Positions 2,383 through 13,401 of a stretch of DNA of 64,000 nucleotides are shown here, piece by piece (position 1 is the first letter of the stretch; every line of letters begins with the position of its first letter). Source of the stretch: Haloferula helveola (GTDB lineage Bacteria > Verrucomicrobiota > Verrucomicrobiia > Verrucomicrobiales > Akkermansiaceae); assembly GCF_037076345.1 (NCBI RefSeq), contig NZ_AP024702.1, positions 2,480,001 to 2,544,000 of the forward strand, in the 5' to 3' direction. Made by a program: the position numbers and the translations under genes. The notes under the pieces were generated by a model, which was not told where the DNA came from, did not search any database, and worked only from the letters and a program-made list of their open reading frames with translations.

Positions 2383-2442
2383 CCGCCCGGCTTCGTCCAG
2401 TTGCCTCGACAGCTCCGGGCCGCCGGATCACATTTTGATTCG

Positions 2443-5223
2443 ATGAGATGGTTGCTCACGGCGTTGTTCGCGATTCTGACCTGCCGTGCGCCGGCAGCCG
2501 AATCGCTCGCCGCGGGGTATGGGTTTCTGGTTCACGTCTGGCAGTCCGAAGACGGTCTGCCGGGAAACGTTGTTCGCTCCATCGGCCAGACCGAAGACGG
2601 CTTCCTGTGGGTCGCCACCGCCGAGGGGATCGCTCGTTTCGATGGCCTCGGCTTCACTTCGATCGGGGCACAGGAACCGGCCATCGGCCGACGGTTCGCC
2701 TTCTTCCGTGTTTTCACTCCGGAAGATCATGGCGTTTGGATTTCGACCTCCCTCGGTGGCCTGTTCCGGATCACGGACAACGAGTTGGTGGAGGTGATCG
2801 AGGGGACGGCCGAAGCGAACCCTCCACTCGTGACGCGGCTTTTCAGCCACGATGAACAGATCCATTTCATTCGGTCGAACGACGTTTGGCGACTTGATGC
2901 GGATGGGCCGGTTCAGGTTGCCGATCCGTCGGAGGATCTGGTCGCCAGCATGGTTGCGGACCAACGCGCCCAAATCGCGAGGGGGCGACGGGATGACCGG
3001 AGCACGCCGACGTCCCTGGAGGACTCGGACGAGGACCGATGGATCGTGTCCGGGGACACCTTGCTGCACGAAGGGCAGGAGGGAGCGGGCGCGATCCCCG
3101 TCATTCCCGAACTCGACGGCCAGCTCACCGTAAGCGACATGCTTGAGGACAAGGAGGGCAATCTCTGGCTCTCAAGTCCCGTGCAGGGCCTCATCCGGGT
3201 CAGGAAAAGCCGGGTTTCGTTTCTCGAGACTGAGGAGGGGCCCTTTCTTGCGGATGTCCGGACCGCGATCCGGGACCGTGAAGGGACATGGTGGCTTGGC
3301 GGGCGCGATGGGGGAATCGATCGCATCCGTGACGGCGAAGTGGAGCACCTCGAACTGGTCGAAGGCGGATACCGCCGGCCGATCGCGTGCATTTTCGAGG
3401 ACTCTCGCGGAACCGTTTGGTTCACCGCGGCCCACGGCAGTGTCTTCTCGTGGAACGGCACCGGCTTTGACCTGCGGTTTTCGGAGGTTTCCCAGGCGGC
3501 GAAGGTGAATGCGATCGCGGAAGATCCGACCGGCCGCCTCTGGTTCGGTGGAGACCGGGGATTGTGCGTGATCGAGGACGGCCAGATCGCGGTCTTCACC
3601 GACGATGCCAAGCTGCAGGGTCACGAGATCACGTCGCTTTTTGCCGCGGACGACGGACGCGTTTTCGCCGGCACGGTCGATGGTCATATCGCGATCATCG
3701 AAGACGGATCGGTTTCGCTGATCGGGACTCCGGCGGAGATGAGCCGCCGCTACGTTTCGGAGATCCTCGTTCTCGAAGGCGAAGAAATCTGGGTGACGAC
3801 CATCGACGCCGGTCTGTTCGTTCGGCGGGACGGGAAATGGCATCGTTTCTCAAGAGCGGACGGCCTGCCTGACGAGCGCCTGACCGGGCTTGTGCTTCAC
3901 GGGACCGACCAGTTCTGGATCGGGTCGCTCGGGGGGATCATCCGGGTCTCGCGGTCCGAGCTCATCCGCCGGCTGACCAACAGCTCCATCGTTCCTCGCT
4001 GGGTCCGGCTGGATCGCTCCGACGGCATGAACACCCGCGAGTGCGTCGGCGGTGCGCAACCGGGAGTTTTCGATGATGGTGAAGGAGCGCTGTGGTTTCC
4101 TACCACGCGCGGTGTGGTGGGTGTCCGGCCGGAGGAGATCCGGATCAACCTCGCTCCACCGTCCCTCCACATCGATGCGGTCGAGATCGACGGCATCCGC
4201 CATCCGGCCGGCCAAGGAACGATCGTCACCGGACCCGGGCGCGTTCAGTTGGTCTTCCACTTCGTCGGTGTCAGCCTCAGTGCCCCTGAGAAGGTGACCT
4301 ACCGGATCCGCCTTGACCCGCTGGACCGCGATTCCTCTTTCAACCGCTCGGACCGGACCGCGAGTTATCAGGCGGTGCCGCCGGGAAGTTACACTTTCGA
4401 GGTCCAGAGTGTGAATGGCGACGGAGTCATGAACATTCTCCCCGAGACCGTTTCGATCGTGGTGCGTCGCCATTTCTGGGAGACTCCGCTGTTCATCACC
4501 TCGGCAATCGTCGTGCTTCTTCTGGCAGCACTGGCCAGCGGCTGGGTGGTCGCCCGCCGGCGCATGCGCCGAAGCCTTGAAGCGCTGCGGGTGCAGGGCC
4601 TGATCGAGGGGGAACGGTCGAGAATCTCACGCGACCTCCACGATGATCTTGGAGCAAGCCTGACCGAGCTCTCGATTCTTTCGGCCCTCGGAGCGGAGGA
4701 CGAGGAGGACGCGAATCTCCGTCCGACCATGGAGACGCTGTCGCAGAAGTCGAAGGAAGTCGTCGGAGCCCTCGACGAAATCGTCTGGGCGGCAACGCCG
4801 AGGGAGGACACCTTGCGCTCGCTCGTCGATTACATCGCTGCCTCGGCAAGGGAGTTCCTCGAGAACGCGCAGGTCGGCCTGGACCTCGAATTCCCGCGCT
4901 CGGTCCCCGATCTGATGATCGGTCCGCGTCGTCGCCACAGTGTCTTCCTCACCACGCGCGAGGCCCTCAACAACGCGGTCAAATACTCCGGTGCCGACTC
5001 GATTTCGCTGTCGATCGATCTGACGGACGCCGAACTGGTCGTGACGGTTTCCGACCGCGGGAAGGGATTCGACCTCGAATATGCCGAGACCTTGGGCAAC
5101 GGCCTCACCAACCTCCGCCAGCGGATGCGGGATTGCGGAGGCGCCTGTAGCATCGATAGCATACCCGGCGAAGGCACTACGGTGACCATCCGCCTTCCCT
5201 TGCCCCCTGCACCGACTTCATGA
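2443..5223 (+). CDS. Two-component regulator-propeller sensor histidine kinase (HisKA_3 type)
   Basis: Membrane sensor kinase of about 926 residues. I chose the ATG at 2443 because it begins a clear signal peptide (MRWLLTALFAILTC); a TTG lies 42 bases upstream in frame. Residues ~30-570 are repeated propeller units (DGFLWVAT, GNLWLSSP, GRLWFGGD), ~590-670 a Y_Y_Y-like beta domain, and ~682-704 a single membrane helix. The dimerisation/phosphoacceptor box DLHDDLGA places the histidine near residue 733, followed by a GHKL ATPase domain (N-box EALNNAVKYSG, G-boxes DRGKGFD and GNGLTNLRQRM). Propeller sensors of this sort usually bind oligosaccharides in the periplasm. The stop overlaps the start of the response regulator by 4 bp, so the two are co-translated partners. 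Confidence 0.93.
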   Translation: MRWLLTALFAILTCRAPAAESLAAGYGFLVHVWQSEDGLPGNVVRSIGQTEDGFLWVATAEGIARFDGLGFTSIGAQEPAIGRRFAFFRVFTPEDHGVWISTSLGGLFRITDNELVEVIEGTAEANPPLVTRLFSHDEQIHFIRSNDVWRLDADGPVQVADPSEDLVASMVADQRAQIARGRRDDRSTPTSLEDSDEDRWIVSGDTLLHEGQEGAGAIPVIPELDGQLTVSDMLEDKEGNLWLSSPVQGLIRVRKSRVSFLETEEGPFLADVRTAIRDREGTWWLGGRDGGIDRIRDGEVEHLELVEGGYRRPIACIFEDSRGTVWFTAAHGSVFSWNGTGFDLRFSEVSQAAKVNAIAEDPTGRLWFGGDRGLCVIEDGQIAVFTDDAKLQGHEITSLFAADDGRVFAGTVDGHIAIIEDGSVSLIGTPAEMSRRYVSEILVLEGEEIWVTTIDAGLFVRRDGKWHRFSRADGLPDERLTGLVLHGTDQFWIGSLGGIIRVSRSELIRRLTNSSIVPRWVRLDRSDGMNTRECVGGAQPGVFDDGEGALWFPTTRGVVGVRPEEIRINLAPPSLHIDAVEIDGIRHPAGQGTIVTGPGRVQLVFHFVGVSLSAPEKVTYRIRLDPLDRDSSFNRSDRTASYQAVPPGSYTFEVQSVNGDGVMNILPETVSIVVRRHFWETPLFITSAIVVLLLAALASGWVVARRRMRRSLEALRVQGLIEGERSRISRDLHDDLGASLTELSILSALGAEDEEDANLRPTMETLSQKSKEVVGALDEIVWAATPREDTLRSLVDYIAASAREFLENAQVGLDLEFPRSVPDLMIGPRRRHSVFLTTREALNNAVKYSGADSISLSIDLTDAELVVTVSDRGKGFDLEYAETLGNGLTNLRQRMRDCGGACSIDSIPGEGTTVTIRLPLPPAPTS

Positions 5224-5882
5224 GCACGACAGACAAGATCCAGATCGCGATCGTCGAGGACAACGCGGCCTTGGGCGCGAGCCTGCGAAAGATCATCGAG
5301 GCCACTCCGCACCTTGAGTGTGTCGGCGTCTGGACCAGCGGCGAGGATGCGCTGCGGAAGGTCGACGCCTTCCGGCCCCAGGTGGTGCTGATGGACATCA
5401 ATCTTCCGGGCATTTCCGGCATCGAGGCGACCGGACGGATCAAGTCGCACCTGCCCGGGATCCAGATCATCATGGTCACCGTCTATCGCGACCACGACAA
5501 GATCTTCGCCGCCCTCAAGGCCGGAGCATCCGGCTACCTGCTGAAACGCTCCGCACCCGCGGAAGTCCGCGCCGCGATCGACGATGTCCGGGCAGGCGGC
5601 GCGCCGATGAGCCCCGAAATCGCGCGGCGGGTCGTCGAGGCCTTCCACCAACCGACGGAATCCCAGACCGAGGAACTCAATCTGACGCCGCGCGAAACCG
5701 AGATCCTCGATTGCCTCTGCGACGGTCTCGCGAACAAGGAGATCGCCGATCAGCTCGACATTTCCACCGAGACCGTCCGCGTCCATCTCCGGCACATCTA
5801 TGAGAAGCTGCACGTGCGTTCCCGGACGGAAGCGGCGATGAAATACCGGGACAGCCGCAATCCGGACCACTGGATGAACTGA
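5220..5882 (+). CDS. NarL/LuxR-family response regulator
   Basis: Cytoplasmic DNA-binding response regulator of 220 residues, partner of the overlapping kinase. The receiver domain has the acidic pair in IVEDN, the phospho-acceptor Asp59 in LMDINLPG and the conserved Lys109 in YLLKRSAP. The C-terminal LuxR-type helix-turn-helix reads LTPRETEILDCLCDGLANKE, then STETVRVHLRHIYEKL. Its targets are unknown; the adjacent rhamnosidase is an obvious candidate but no operator was identified. Confidence 0.95.
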   Translation: MSTTDKIQIAIVEDNAALGASLRKIIEATPHLECVGVWTSGEDALRKVDAFRPQVVLMDINLPGISGIEATGRIKSHLPGIQIIMVTVYRDHDKIFAALKAGASGYLLKRSAPAEVRAAIDDVRAGGAPMSPEIARRVVEAFHQPTESQTEELNLTPRETEILDCLCDGLANKEIADQLDISTETVRVHLRHIYEKLHVRSRTEAAMKYRDSRNPDHWMN

Positions 5883-8933: not shown

Positions 8934-10406
8934 TCAGCGGCTCGATTGTGCCCGGATCACGGTGCGCGCGTAGCGGGTCAGCGCGGGGGTTCCGGAATCG
9001 GTGACCTCGCAGACCATGTGGATGGTGTCGCCGTCGTTTGCGTCGGCCGGGACCTTGATGGCGACCTTCGGCTTGTCGGAGCCGGCCAGTTCGGGTCCCG
9101 AGTAGGTTCCGGCTTCCCGGTAGTGCCACCAGCGTGCCGTGAGGCGGTCACCGTCCGGATCGCGGCTGGCGCTGGCGTCGAGCGTCACGGTCTCGCCGGG
9201 TTTCGCATCGATCTCCAGAGCGGTGTCCTTCAACTCGACGACCGGCGGATGGTTGGCGTCCTCGTAGGACTTCACGCACCAGTCGGCGCGGGCGGCGAAG
9301 TCGTTCTGAACATCATCGAGCCAGCGTGAGATCGGCTTGAAGTAGTGCGCGCGAACCGCCTGATCCTCGGGACTTGAAACATTTTCCAGTTTTTTCGCCC
9401 AGCTCTTGTCGATGGTCCATCGGCCGTCCGGATGCTTCCAGTCGGGAGCCGGCGGCGGATCCATCCAGACGTTCGCCCGGATCTTCACGTAGCGACCGCC
9501 CCAGCCTCCCCAGCCGGGTGACTCGATGCTGCGCAGGCCGTTGGGGATCGTGTGGAGGAAGGCGGGCGTGTCGCCCTCGGCATGGAAGGCGCCATTGAGG
9601 TGCTCGTAGGCGTCGCACAGCGGGCCATGACCTTTCAGGATGTGCTCGCCCATCCAGTCGGCCTCGAAGTAGCGCTTCGTTTTCTCCGGCAGGACCTTCG
9701 GCCAGATGTAGGCCATGCAGTCGAACTGGTCGGAGATGATGGTCGGAATCCCGAACCGCTCCCAGTTCGGACGGATGTAGCTCTGGTAGGTTCCGTCCTG
9801 TTCCCAAATCAGGAAGAGACGCAGCTTGGCCGCGACTTCCTCCATCCGCTCCGGGTGGTCTTCCTCGATGATCCGCAGCGCCCGCGAGATCGTGTTGCAA
9901 CCGCCCCATGCCTGGATCCAGACCGGTCGCGGGTCGGTGTCGTCGAGCAGCACCTTGGCGATCCACTCGGCGCCTTCGGTGCGCTTCTTGTCTTCGCCGT
10001 CCGGGCCGATGTTGCCGACCTTCCAACGGCTCAGCAGGTATTCGGGGGAAGGATAGTTCGGATCGTGGAGCAGCAGGTTGGGATGCACTTTCGCGTACAG
10101 GGCGATGTATTTCTCGACCCAATCGACGGGATGGAACGCGTGCCACCCCTCGCCGCCGACCCAGTGGAACTGCGAGCTGCTGTTGATGATGCCCTCCACC
10201 TCGAACTCGTTTGCGGTGAGGAGAAACCTCACCATCGAGCAGCGGTCGTCCGCTTCACCGTCGGTCGTCACGATCACACGCGGCCGGTCGGGTGCTGGTG
10301 GTTCCGCGGAACTGGCGATTGCTGTCCCAAAGGATGCAGCAAGCGCGAGAAGCGGAGTCGTGGCGGCGCGGAAGTTCATCAGCAGGGAAGACGTCTGCAT
10401 TGCCAT
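8934..10406 (-). CDS. DUF1593 (Sde182/nucleoside hydrolase-like) exported protein
   Basis: Exported protein of about 490 residues. The N-terminal ~340 residues form the DUF1593 domain, related to the nucleoside-hydrolase fold: RVIVTTDGEADDRCSM carries the acidic metal-type motif and the GWGGWGGRY stretch is typical. The C-terminal ~100 residues are a beta-sandwich found in Sde182-like cellulose-binding-annotated proteins (TLDASASRDPDGDRLTARWW). The enzymatic activity of the family is not established; it is usually linked to polysaccharide breakdown. The start at 10406 (or 10400) is preferred over 10433 because a perfect 14-bp palindrome occupies 10416-10429 and because it gives a better signal peptide (LLALAASFGTAIASSAE). 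Confidence 0.85.
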   Translation of the reverse strand: MAMQTSSLLMNFRAATTPLLALAASFGTAIASSAEPPAPDRPRVIVTTDGEADDRCSMVRFLLTANEFEVEGIINSSSQFHWVGGEGWHAFHPVDWVEKYIALYAKVHPNLLLHDPNYPSPEYLLSRWKVGNIGPDGEDKKRTEGAEWIAKVLLDDTDPRPVWIQAWGGCNTISRALRIIEEDHPERMEEVAAKLRLFLIWEQDGTYQSYIRPNWERFGIPTIISDQFDCMAYIWPKVLPEKTKRYFEADWMGEHILKGHGPLCDAYEHLNGAFHAEGDTPAFLHTIPNGLRSIESPGWGGWGGRYVKIRANVWMDPPPAPDWKHPDGRWTIDKSWAKKLENVSSPEDQAVRAHYFKPISRWLDDVQNDFAARADWCVKSYEDANHPPVVELKDTALEIDAKPGETVTLDASASRDPDGDRLTARWWHYREAGTYSGPELAGSDKPKVAIKVPADANDGDTIHMVCEVTDSGTPALTRYARTVIRAQSSR

Positions 10407-10415
10407 GGGGATCAC

Positions 10416-10429
10416 CCGTTTGCAAACGG
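10416..10429. promoter_or_regulatory. Perfect 14-bp palindrome, candidate operator
   Basis: CCGTTTGCAAACGG is identical to its reverse complement and lies 10 bases before the preferred start of the DUF1593 gene. The centre is TGCA, as in the palindrome at 23950-23963 beside the paralogous regulator. The half-site resembles LacI-family operators. Binding by the adjacent hybrid regulator is inference. Confidence 0.6.
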
Positions 10430-10479
10430 ACATCGCCCACTGACACGGAAGTCAGCTCGACTCCGGGCGCAAGGAAAAG

Positions 10480-10542
10480 GGACCGCGCGAGCCCACTCGC
10501 GCTCCATCGGTCCGGCGATGCGCGAGTGGGCTCGCGCGGTCC
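10480..10542. repeat. REP-like element, perfect 23-bp inverted repeat
   Basis: The 23 bases at 10480-10502 are exactly the reverse complement of those at 10520-10542, with a 17-base loop. The same unit recurs at 54110-54173 (one mismatch) and as a half copy at 11856-11878. It lies between the histidine kinase stop and the DUF1593 gene, so it is extragenic, as REP/REPIN elements usually are. Confidence 0.85.
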
Positions 10543-10608
10543 GCCTGCGGCTCGTTCCAATTTCCGAAATGGTCCCTTTGCGGTTCCACCAATCGCCATC
10601 GGAAGCGC

Positions 10609-11736
10609 TCAATTCCCGTCGTTACCCGCGACGGCGCTTGCCGGGAGCGAGATGGTCAGGCGTGAGCCTCCGAGCGGCGATTCGGCTGCCGAGATCTTCC
10701 AGCCGTGCTCATCGAGGATGCGGCGGCAGAAGGCGAGCCCCATGCCGTGGCCGTCGCGGTCACTCGAGTCGTCGCTCCGGTAACCGGCGCCGAAGACGCG
10801 CTCGCGGTCATCCGGATCGATGCCTCTCCCGTTGTCGTCGAAGTGCAGAAGCACCCGGTCTTCCGACCGGACCGCCGACACCCGGATCTCGGGATCCGCA
10901 GATCCGCTGTACTTGAGGGCGTTTTCGACGAGGTTCAGGCAGACATGGAAAATGGCATCGCGGTCGGCTTTCGCGACGGGGAGGTCCTCCCAGACCAAGG
11001 TGCCGCGTTTGACCAGGATCACCGACGAGACCGCCGCCTTCACATCGCCCATGAGGGCACCGAGATCGACATCCTCGATGGCTGCCGGAGTGCCGGCCTT
11101 CAGATCGACCTTGAGGCTTTCGAGCTGGCGATTCATCGCGCGCAGCGAGTCGGCGATCATGCTCAGGTTCTCGGATGTCCGGAGCTCGCTGCTTTCGACG
11201 GCGAGGTCCGCCATCATCACGGCGCTGGACAACGGGTTGCGGAGGTCGTGCGCGACCATCGAAGACAGCATCTTCAGCTCGCGGTTGGCCATCTCTGCGC
11301 GGATCTCCGCCTGGCGCCGTCGCTCGAGTTCGTCGGTCAGCCGCGAGTTGATCGCTTTCAATTCGGGCAGCTCGAGCGCTCCGGGAATTTTGCGCCAGAG
11401 GTAGAAGACGGTCACCCACGACACGAGCGCCGTGAGCAGCTTGGTCAGTCCCGAGAGGCGGTAGAGCGGGTGGTAGAAAATGATCGCGTCGATCAGGTGG
11501 ACGGTCCCGCAACTCAGGATGAAGGCGGCGAAGAGGAACACGACCCGGTTGAGCAGGATGTTGCTGCTCTTCTTCCGCGCGAAGTGGATCAGCATCAGCG
11601 GGATCGTGAAATACGCCGCCCAGACGGCGATGTCCGAAACGATGTGGAGCCACCCGTGGAACGGATCCCAGTCACCGCAGTGCCAGCGCGCCGGGAAATC
11701 CGAGGTGTCGAAAAGCTTGGAAAAGAAATCGCTCAA
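10609..11736 (-). CDS. Sensor histidine kinase with ethylene-receptor-like membrane domain
   Basis: A 375-residue membrane histidine kinase. Residues ~30-115 form three helices matching the ethylene-binding domain of ETR1 position by position: SD followed by AYFTIPL gives Asp35, Tyr42, Ile45 and Pro46; FAAFILSCGTVHLI gives Ile73, Cys76 and His80. These correspond to ETR1 Asp25, Tyr32, Ile35, Pro36, Ile62 and the copper ligands Cys65 and His69. The third helix (TKLLTALVSWVTV) also aligns. A coiled coil (~122-155) leads to a canonical HisKA box (VAHDLRNPL, His163) and an HATPase with CLNLVENALKYSG, DDNGRGID and GHGMGLAFC. There is no GAF or receiver domain and no adjacent response regulator. 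Ligand binding is inferred from conserved residues; other small hydrophobic or metal ligands remain possible. Confidence 0.88.
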   Translation of the reverse strand: MSDFFSKLFDTSDFPARWHCGDWDPFHGWLHIVSDIAVWAAYFTIPLMLIHFARKKSSNILLNRVVFLFAAFILSCGTVHLIDAIIFYHPLYRLSGLTKLLTALVSWVTVFYLWRKIPGALELPELKAINSRLTDELERRRQAEIRAEMANRELKMLSSMVAHDLRNPLSSAVMMADLAVESSELRTSENLSMIADSLRAMNRQLESLKVDLKAGTPAAIEDVDLGALMGDVKAAVSSVILVKRGTLVWEDLPVAKADRDAIFHVCLNLVENALKYSGSADPEIRVSAVRSEDRVLLHFDDNGRGIDPDDRERVFGAGYRSDDSSDRDGHGMGLAFCRRILDEHGWKISAAESPLGGSRLTISLPASAVAGNDGN

Positions 11737-11855
11737 CGGCGTGGGGGTTGCGGATCGCGTAAGGGCGGCGCGGGTTGTTCACCTTTTGTGCGCGAGCGGG
11801 AGCGTGACTCGCCGGATCGGCGCCGCAAGCAGATTTATCGCGCGGAATCACCGGG

Positions 11856-11878
11856 GCGCGAGTGGGCTCGCGCGGTCC
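11856..11878. repeat. Half copy of the 23-bp REP-like unit
   Basis: The 23 bases equal the right arm of the element at 10520-10542, and the following GCCTGCGG is also shared. No matching left arm is seen nearby. It sits in the 151-bp gap between modB and the kinase gene. Confidence 0.75.
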
Positions 11879-11887
11879 GCCTGCGGC

Positions 11888-12562
11888 CTAGAGCCGGGGT
11901 CCGGCGGACTTCGCGACCCACTGGCGGAGGGCGACGCAGAGCACGGCGATGCCGACCGAGACGCCGGCAAGCATCCAGGCGCGCGAGTCGTCGCCGGACT
12001 GCACGCCGCGGTAGATCGCGAGTGGCAAGGTTTCGGTCACGCCGGGAATGAAACCGGCGACCATGATGGTCGCGCCGAACTCGCCGAGCGAGCGTGAGAA
12101 ACCGAGCAGCACGCCGGAGGCGATGCCGCGCTTCGCCTGTGGCAGGCTGACCCGGAAGAACACCCGCCACGGCCGCGTACCGAGGGTGCGGGCGGCGTTC
12201 TCGAGCGGCTCGGGAATTTCCTCGAAGGCGGTGCGGATGCTGCCGAGCAGCAGCGGGAACGACATGACCGCCATCGCGATGACCACCGCCTTCCACGTGA
12301 AGATCACCTCAATGCCGAACCATGCTTCGAGCGGCTGGCCCAATGGCCCGTTGCGACCGAAGAGCATCAGCAAGACCAATCCGGTGACGACCGGGGGCAC
12401 GACAAGCGGCAACAGCACGATGGCTTCGACGAGTGTTTTGCCACGCCATCGTTTCTTGGCGAGCAGCCATCCGAGGGCGATGGCGAAAGGCAACGCGATC
12501 ATCACCGCCAGTGCCGCGGAACCGACGGTGAACAGGATCAGTCGGAAGTCGGCGGGGATCAC
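11888..12562 (-). CDS. modB: Molybdate ABC transporter permease ModB
   Basis: Inner-membrane permease of 224 residues with about five helices. The cytoplasmic EAA loop, where the ATPase docks, is visible as ENAARTLGTRPWRVFFRVSLP without any gap in it. LLPLVVPPVVTGLVLL and SLGEFGATIMVAG are typical ModB segments. It passes molybdate (or tungstate) delivered by ModA. Its ATG overlaps the modA stop by 4 bp, so the two form an operon. No modC ATPase gene follows; the next gene is the histidine kinase after 151 bp. Confidence 0.93.
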   Translation of the reverse strand: MIPADFRLILFTVGSAALAVMIALPFAIALGWLLAKKRWRGKTLVEAIVLLPLVVPPVVTGLVLLMLFGRNGPLGQPLEAWFGIEVIFTWKAVVIAMAVMSFPLLLGSIRTAFEEIPEPLENAARTLGTRPWRVFFRVSLPQAKRGIASGVLLGFSRSLGEFGATIMVAGFIPGVTETLPLAIYRGVQSGDDSRAWMLAGVSVGIAVLCVALRQWVAKSAGPRL

Positions 12563-13305
12563 GGCTCGGAATTCGCGAGACCGAAGCCCCGGCGTTTGAA
12601 TATGGCGGCGGAGGATTCACCCCTCAGGAACGCGACGAAACGCTTCGCTTCTTCGGGCGCGGTGGATCGCATGCATACCGCGACCGGATAGCGAATCTCG
12701 GGTGACTCGTCGGCTGGGATTTCAAACGCGATGCGCACCTTGTCCGAGATCGCGGCATCGGTTCGGTAAACGATCGCGGCATCGACATTGCCGGCTCCGG
12801 CCGCGGCGAGCGCTCCGCGAACATGAGCGGTGCCGACGCAACGGCTTTGCAACGACTTCCACACTCCTGCGCGCTCCAGCCACGATTTCGCATACATGCC
12901 CGCAGGGTTTCCGCCGGGGTCACCGATCGCGAGCCGGTGCAATTGAAGGAGATCATCGGCTCTTCCAATCTTCGCCGGAGAGTGCTTCGGAATGATCACC
13001 ACCAGCCGGTTGGTCAGCAGCGCTTGCGGCTTTTCCACGAGCTTCTTTCCGACCAGCCGCTCCATGCTTCGTTCATCCGCGGCAATGAAGACATCGATCG
13101 GTGCGCCGTGCTCGATCTGGCGGGCGAGGGTGTTCGAGCCGGCGATGACCGGCCGGACCGCGATGCCGGTTTCCTTTTCAAAGGCCGCGGCAATCTCGCC
13201 CATCGCCTCATCGAGGCTGGCCGCCGCCGCCACCCGCAACTCGTCGGCGTGAGCGATCGCGGCGAGAGCCAGAGGCAGGAACCAACGGAGCGGGTGGAGG
13301 GTCAT
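12559..13305 (-). CDS. modA: Molybdate ABC transporter substrate-binding protein ModA
   Basis: Periplasmic oxyanion-binding protein of 248 residues. The signal peptide (MTLHPLRWFLPLALAAIAHA) supports the start at 13305 rather than an in-frame codon at 13344. The mature protein begins ELRVAAAASLDEAM and includes PVIAGSNTLARQIEHGAPID and DVFIAADERSMERL, the typical ModA ligand-site segments, and AIVYRTDA near the end. It feeds ModB, encoded immediately downstream with a 4-bp overlap. Specificity for molybdate versus tungstate cannot be read from sequence alone. Confidence 0.93.
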   Translation of the reverse strand: MTLHPLRWFLPLALAAIAHADELRVAAAASLDEAMGEIAAAFEKETGIAVRPVIAGSNTLARQIEHGAPIDVFIAADERSMERLVGKKLVEKPQALLTNRLVVIIPKHSPAKIGRADDLLQLHRLAIGDPGGNPAGMYAKSWLERAGVWKSLQSRCVGTAHVRGALAAAGAGNVDAAIVYRTDAAISDKVRIAFEIPADESPEIRYPVAVCMRSTAPEEAKRFVAFLRGESSAAIFKRRGFGLANSEP

Positions 13306-13401
13306 CGGGTGGTTGTGGTCAACCCGAACCAACCAGAGCGGCACCGCGCTGTCGAACGCAACACCGCGGTCCGTGATGACTCCCGTTCAGCCGTACGATG
13401 A

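Follow-up and report, generated by a model that had tools for sequence, protein, structure and literature searches.

The question raised by this locus is what a histidine kinase with the membrane domain of an ethylene receptor senses in the bacterium Haloferula helveola, whether ethylene, copper or another small molecule, and where its signal goes. We analysed the kinase within the 64,000-nucleotide stretch of the genome that contains it (hereafter the window). By its sequence, the protein combines an ETR1-type three-helix domain with an intact kinase, with no extra sensory domain and no linked regulator. The reading that we favour, with a probability of about 0.7, is that it is an inner-membrane ethylene sensor of minimal layout, which would be loaded with Cu(I), would bind ethylene and would signal to an unlinked regulator.

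An earlier note on this DNA had described a histidine kinase with an ethylene-receptor membrane domain and had proposed a profile search as a check. The profile of that domain (ETR1_N) matched the protein with an E-value of 6.5e-32, scoring 110.1 bits in the Pfam scan and 113.6 bits in a search of the whole genome, far over the curated cut-off of 27, and the description holds. No other ETR1_N domain was found in the H. helveola genome by the latter search. The HisKA and HATPase_c domains (Table 1) are intact, with N, G1 and G2 boxes that read by eye as NLVENALK, DDNGRG and GHGMGL; one further ATPase model, below its threshold, overlaps HATPase_c. Between the upstream stop and the membrane domain, TTG is the sole start codon in frame. 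When the whole protein was used to scan a collection of genome contigs, four loci were returned, three of which matched the kinase part only (query 136-365), while the fourth matched over a longer stretch (query 62-369) at 26% identity.

Table 1. Coordinates and supporting evidence for the features discussed in the text. Positions without a prefix are those of the window; paired bit scores are score and cut-off.
Feature	Position	Strand	Evidence or context
ETR1_N histidine kinase gene, 375 aa, TTG start	10609..11736	-	ORF and Pfam domains; orthologues in 8/17 other genus genomes
N-terminal motif with Cys20, PARWHCGDW (aa 15-23), predicted to lie outside the membrane	11668..11694	-	other bacteria have a PHGxCYxW-like motif, of which this is a variant
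Ethylene-binding domain ETR1_N, aa 27-123, three predicted transmembrane helices	11368..11658	-	Pfam PF25487, E 6.5e-32
Asp35 codon (= ETR1 Asp25)	11632..11634	-	alignment to ETR1
Cys76 codon (= ETR1 Cys65, copper ligand)	11509..11511	-	alignment to ETR1, genus alignment
His80 codon (= ETR1 His69, copper ligand)	11497..11499	-	alignment to ETR1, genus alignment
Lys99 codon (= ETR1 Lys91)	11440..11442	-	alignments; PMC11819568
Helical linker, aa 124-155, helix 3 to kinase, without GAF or PAS match	11272..11367	-	Pfam, predicted structure
HisKA, aa 156-208, phospho-acceptor His163 in VAHDLRNP	11113..11271	-	Pfam 29.4 vs 26.9 bits; sequence
HATPase_c, aa 258-366, with N, G1, G2 boxes	10639..10965	-	Pfam 87.6 vs 26.4 bits; sequence
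Dispersed REP-like repeat, downstream copy	10522..10551	+	identical 30-mer
Dispersed REP-like repeat, upstream copy	11858..11887	+	identical 30-mer
modB, upstream neighbour	11888..12562	-	NCBIfam 221 vs 182.6 bits
modA, upstream neighbour	12559..13344	-	NCBIfam 172.9 vs 62.5 bits
Stand-alone ETR1_N	L114:2983-3354		muramidase gene within 2 kb
Stand-alone ETR1_N	L116:3808-4176		Phage_lysozyme2 gene within 2 kb
Stand-alone ETR1_N	L120:5001-5381		GH108 gene within 2 kb
Stand-alone ETR1_N	L122:4986-5369		GH19 gene within 2 kb
Stand-alone ETR1_N, gp065 of Maribacter phage Molly_1, 289 aa	L117:4890-5759		next gene is an amidase endolysin

The Pfam scan found no GAF, PAS or phytochrome domain in the window kinase, and a single predicted helix connects the membrane domain to the kinase, as had been claimed. 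The absence of a GAF domain is not special in itself, because ETR1_N runs straight into the kinase, with seven of seven ligand-site residues present, in two plasmid-encoded proteins, one of 384 aa in Novosphingobium sp. ES2-1 and one of 381 aa in Blastomonas sp. RAC04. For the membrane domain, AlphaFold2 predicted helices at aa 25-56, 60-86 and 93-120 (mean pLDDT 72.7, pTM 0.44), in keeping with the three transmembrane helices of the ETR1_N family; the single-sequence fold of the full-length protein was poor (mean pLDDT 53). A Foldseek search of PDB and BFVD for another membrane-sensor family to which the helices might belong gave no match at E <= 0.001, a weak check because a sequence search of solved structures with the ETR1_N domain was empty at E <= 5.

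All seven of the residues that ETR1 requires for ethylene binding are retained. Specifically, Asp35, Tyr42, Ile45, Pro46, Ile73, Cys76 and His80 align to ETR1 Asp25, Tyr32, Ile35, Pro36, Ile62, Cys65 and His69, and the two copper ligands fall in the same columns in both proteins, as the earlier note had stated. The N-terminal sequence of ETR1 in these alignments is presumed correct, with a partial check in that each of the seven residues stands at its published number. The alignment over the first two helices had been described as gapless; there is one single-residue gap, placed within aa 27-85 by MAFFT and between helices 1 and 2 in a second alignment. The residue equivalent to Lys99, ETR1 Lys91, has been tied to receptor output (PMC11819568).

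We also examined the N-terminal cysteine. Among 45 bacterial rows (this count and that of the 24 loci outside the genus include L055, which at 22.9 bits misses the family cut-off, and two weaker rows, L069 and L070, none of which is in the tree), the Cys20 column holds Cys in all 33 rows with an intact seven-residue site and in seven of the 12 with a changed site. The association has a Fisher p of 0.0006 with relatedness ignored, and three of the five Cys-less rows are weak family members. Positions 17-18 are Arg-Trp, the type of the window kinase, in 19 rows and His-Gly in 18. Cyanobacterial receptors have one N-terminal Cys, and it may take the place of the plant pair (PMC6682694). Three second or divergent ETR1_N paralogues (L064, L065 and L067, in genomes G423 and G374) have altered ligand residues, with Asp changed to Asn, Pro to Ser and His to Tyr, and two of the three also lack the N-terminal Cys; from these changes they are possibly re-tuned or non-binding receptors.

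Bacterial ethylene receptors are already known in cyanobacteria and proteobacteria, and putative ones occur in further phyla (PMC11819568). AzoEtr1 of Azospirillum brasilense resembles the window kinase in all seven residues, a single N-terminal Cys and kinase output, and 40 of 96 residues over aa 27-123 are identical; the sequence compared is a 525-aa protein of strain Sp7, whose record has no annotation and which its strain, length and domain lead us to equate with AzoEtr1. Binding of 14C-ethylene has been measured for residues 1-130 of AzoEtr1, and the variants D35A and C75A were constructed in the expectation that they would not bind (PMC11819568). Unlike the window kinase, AzoEtr1, at 525 aa, contains a PAS domain, and its gene overlaps that of a response regulator (PMC11819568), and the N-terminal motif of the A. 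brasilense protein is LPHGVCLFW where ours is PARWHCGDW. SynEtr1 (slr1212) and GeiEtr1 share the ethylene-binding domain, the histidine kinase and the one N-terminal Cys, but the former has a cyanobacteriochrome-type domain and the latter a GAF domain (PMC6682694), and the window kinase has neither.

The two minimal sphingomonad kinases differ from ours in their surroundings: that of Novosphingobium has an adjacent response regulator, and that of Blastomonas, a kinase of the HWE type, neighbours two regulator genes on the opposite strand. Plant ETR1, which carries a GAF domain, is alike in the seven binding residues, in Lys91 as the counterpart of Lys99, and in 36 of 96 residues over aa 27-123. 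It has a receiver domain and two N-terminal Cys (PMC6586836, PMC6682694), whereas the window protein is a plain bacterial HisKA kinase. The minimal layout is known in sphingomonads and hence not unique; the window kinase is an orphan, minimal, lineage-specific form of a known kind of protein. Our literature search, with most subscription papers outside its scope, gave for an ethylene receptor in Verrucomicrobiota only work on tomato and alfalfa, judged by title, and nothing for ethylene and a histidine kinase in Luteolibacter.

The domain is unevenly distributed. It is present in nine of the 18 genomes of the host genus, the window genome included, with two of the nine lacking it less than 75% complete; the kinase is therefore dispensable. 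A match was found in 18 of 57 genomes among relatives (17 above the cut-off, again counting the window genome), in 24 of 387 across the phylum (23 above the cut-off, in a sample that overlaps the relatives) and in none of 14 control genomes; in G380 there is a sub-threshold match of 20.7 bits. The nine genus proteins, of 372-391 aa, form one clade with support 100/98. A split supported at 100/99 sets 20 rows, the window kinase among them and every one from this phylum, apart from 22 rows to which ETR1, the plasmid proteins and further genomes of the phylum belong. For the plasmids, 12 of the 18 records with an ETR1_N match were used, and L109 was left out of the tree, its N-terminus repeating that of L098.

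Within the genus, the sensor is more conserved than the kinase. The eight orthologues are 51-62% identical to the window kinase in ETR1_N, 32-40% in HisKA and 29-38% in HATPase_c, and invariant positions over the nine proteins number 36 of 97, 13 of 60 and 19 of 115, respectively. All eight keep the seven ligand-site residues. In other words, the output side has drifted and the ligand site has not.

The gene neighbourhood had been described as modAB on one side and REP-like repeats on both. Both mod genes do lie directly upstream on the same strand, above their NCBIfam cut-offs, and an identical 30-mer flanks the kinase; the 24-base core of the repeat is dispersed, with 27 genome copies at <=1 mismatch vs 0 for the reversed pattern. 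We clustered the ORFs found within 12 kb on each side of the kinase start (116 clusters), and those in common with other loci were the kinase and an antisense ORF only. Because no other carrier has the neighbours of the window kinase, we regard modAB as incidental and rejected a functional tie to molybdate transport. Several neighbours are common to three close carriers (L050, L053 and L054). No modC scored above the cut-off in the genome (best 177 bits vs 285, a strict cut-off that one of the 14 control genomes passes); modAB has no modC adjacent, and the ETR1_N kinase occupies the spot where modC might be expected. Our scan of 10400-12000 found no sigma-70 promoter-like site, and five terminator-like sites vs 0.8 expected.

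We looked for receiver domains in 33 loci, using a profile built from those loci. None of the nine genus loci has a fused receiver or a receiver within 1 kb, with the surroundings of L050 and L053, near contig ends, seen in part. Elsewhere in the phylum, 22 of 24 loci have a regulator fused (13) or encoded in a touching or adjacent ORF (nine, among them L049, where the next ORF reads like the remainder of a hybrid kinase); the two with neither are L055 and L061. Within 12 kb of the window kinase the nearest receiver, at 5220-5882, is 4.7 kb off and beside its own kinase (2401-5223), in agreement with the claim that no response regulator lies nearby. The window kinase thus has neither the fused nor the adjacent regulator of a canonical linked two-component system, and the ETR1_N kinases of the genus are a clade of short kinases without one, described here for the first time. 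The kinase may not be an orphan in every carrier, because three of them (genomes G008, G011 and G015) encode a related hybrid PAS kinase with a receiver nearby, at a distance of 1.3 kb in L054, 2.1 kb in L053 and 3.1 kb in L051, where it is a possible partner. No hybrid PAS kinase of that type was found near the window kinase.

The earlier note had also suggested a search of the genome for an orphan response regulator. We found 26 receiver matches and 25 HATPase_c matches in H. helveola; the latter list is incomplete, having missed the kinase beside the regulator at 4686211; two of its matches are GyrB/ParE-like by sight, and two others, at 4011142 and 4103530, are among its weakest. The search did yield regulators without a clear kinase, namely a receiver-only protein at 480155, an NtrC-like sigma-54 activator at 3817824 and, less clearly, an OmpR-type regulator at 3354088 with a kinase 4 kb away, but no specific partner. 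The sigma-54 activator (G000:C1:3817824-3819197) is in all 18 genus genomes, with best matches 74-82% identical in the other 17, and is the only one of the unpaired regulators searched across the genus that occurs in every carrier. Being present with or without the ETR1_N kinase, it is an available but not a specific partner. The receiver-only protein had no counterpart in the nearest carrier, G014, at E <= 1e-12, and outside G000 one match fell in a comparably short ORF, in G012.

Three other candidates found no support. The Rcp1-like regulator at 2733481 has a PAS-like kinase of its own, with which it overlaps, and the regulator at 4686211 has an adjacent kinase. The single-domain type encoded behind the kinase in G027, a sister genus, occurs as a 150-aa ORF in only two of nine carriers (G000 and G002); a 150-aa match is also present in the non-carrier G010, and the remaining matches are within longer ORFs.

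Another check concerns the copper supply. Two P-type ATPases were found in the genome, scoring 348 and 242 bits against a Cu-ATPase cut-off of 397 bits; 13 of the 14 control genomes score above it. The second ATPase, at G000:C1:5216496, has the motifs CPC, CxxC and MPISS, typical of CcoI/FixI copper pumps, and by these motifs it is likely to be the copper supplier, as RAN1 is in plants. No ACC deaminase exceeded the cut-off (28 vs 392 bits), which none of the 14 controls passes, and for this reason nothing else that we found ties the genome to ethylene.

We favour the ethylene-sensor reading because of the ETR1_N match, the seven residues in all nine genus proteins, the likeness to AzoEtr1, the conservation of the sensor, the single clade, the lack of a receiver within 1 kb at all nine loci, the copper-type ATPase motifs and the predicted helix pattern. 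The points against it are the want of a specific partner, the hybrid kinases near the gene in three carriers, the patchy presence, the missing ACC deaminase, the failure of either ATPase to reach the Cu-ATPase cut-off and the poor fold of the full-length protein. In the mechanism that we envisage, two chains would dimerise, perhaps held by a disulfide through Cys20, and each would hold Cu(I), probably delivered by the CcoI/FixI-like pump, through Cys76 and His80, while Asp35 would orient His80 and touch Lys99. Ethylene on Cu(I) would alter the packing of the helices. Through a continuous helix from membrane helix 3 along the linker to His163, this change would affect autophosphorylation, and the phosphate would pass to a regulator encoded elsewhere in the genome.

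ETR1_N also occurs without a kinase in phages. Our scans of viral contigs were pattern-based, so that the five sources found, four IMG/VR contigs and the cultured Maribacter phages Molly and Colly, are a lower bound; a phage collection was also searched, and the window ETR1_N domain itself gave no match there. All five proteins exceed the Pfam cut-off (E 6.6e-10 to 2.7e-18), and those of IMG/VR are 122 to 127 aa long with start codons chosen by us. Cys20, Tyr42, Ile45, Ile73, Cys76 and His80 are kept in all five, Asp35 in one, and Pro46 and Lys99 in none. In each of the five sources a gene for a wall-degrading enzyme lies <=2 kb away (Table 1), although the L116 Phage_lysozyme2 protein is tape-measure-like by PHROGs. 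No PHROGs family was found for the three stand-alone proteins scanned. In the Molly paper the amidase is the sole lysis gene in Table 3, proteins with 1-4 transmembrane domains are reported near the lysins of the phages, and the main text does not contain the word 'ethylene' (PMC8776804). No account of a phage ethylene receptor with a holin was found in our literature search, which had most subscription papers outside its scope. From their position and size, we would guess at a holin or lysis-timing role, and this finding is perhaps more novel than the kinase.

Directly before the ETR1_N gene, three of the contigs encode related small proteins (L116:3302-3811, L122:4504-4989 and L120:4535-5011; 27-32% identity, E 1e-20 to 1e-31) with a hydrophobic N-terminus and no Pfam match in the two scanned. 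On a further viral contig (L113:2914-4498), an ETR1_N histidine kinase that keeps Asp35, Cys76 and His80 and lacks Tyr42, Pro46 and Cys20 overlaps a single-domain response regulator; the gene next to them resembles that of a head-maturation protease.

How else might the window kinase be read? It could sense copper itself, with Cu(I) occupancy of Cys76 and His80 as the signal and the domain kept for that purpose. Neither ligand varies among the nine genus proteins, and binding a metal may be what the domain does more generally, given that all five phage proteins keep the two ligands but lose Pro46 and Lys99 and, in four cases, Asp35. We nonetheless consider a copper sensor improbable, for the other five ethylene-binding residues are all retained in the window kinase, and the copper affinity reported for the ETR1 domain, 1.3e-15 M, suits a permanent cofactor (PMC6586836). 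A wider proposal, to which we give a low probability, is that the ETR1-type domain may be a general mobile Cu(I) membrane module and not an ethylene receptor as such; it would serve here in a minimal orphan kinase that has lost its dedicated regulator and feeds an unlinked one, and in tailed phages as a stand-alone protein of the lysis region, where, being sensitive to copper or a gas, it could act as or time a holin.

Several small molecules can bind at Cu(I) sites, and the same chemistry might therefore serve to detect CO, oxygen or another small alkene; ACC deaminase, the sole other ethylene-related enzyme sought, fell below its cut-off, as this would allow. Such a ligand seems very improbable to us when the residues defined by loss of ethylene binding in ETR1 are fully retained and the tested bacterial homologues bind ethylene (PMC11819568, PMC6682694). 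We give hardly any credence to a decaying or neutral passenger gene, moved about the genome and with no physiological role. The occurrence in half of the genus genomes, the neighbours not common to other carriers, the repeat copy on each side and the TTG start would all fit one, but both domains are intact, the ligand site is invariant in nine of nine proteins of a single well-supported clade, and L050, L053 and L054 do have neighbours in common.

Ethylene perception has been shown directly in few bacterial species. A receptor made of the domain, a helix and a kinase would be a simple system for studying how ethylene binding alters the kinase, a step still obscure for plants (PMC6586836), and the presence and absence of the gene within the genus supply natural pairs for finding its regulator and its benefit. 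Should the phage proteins prove to bind copper or ethylene, they would place the sensor domain wholly outside signalling. Among the plasmids we also observed early-ending ETR1_N ORFs, of 298 and 301 aa in Acaryochloris (L108 and L107) and of 207 aa in A. brasilense MTCC4038 (L109); in L108 an IS1 transposase gene lies directly behind the shortened ORF.
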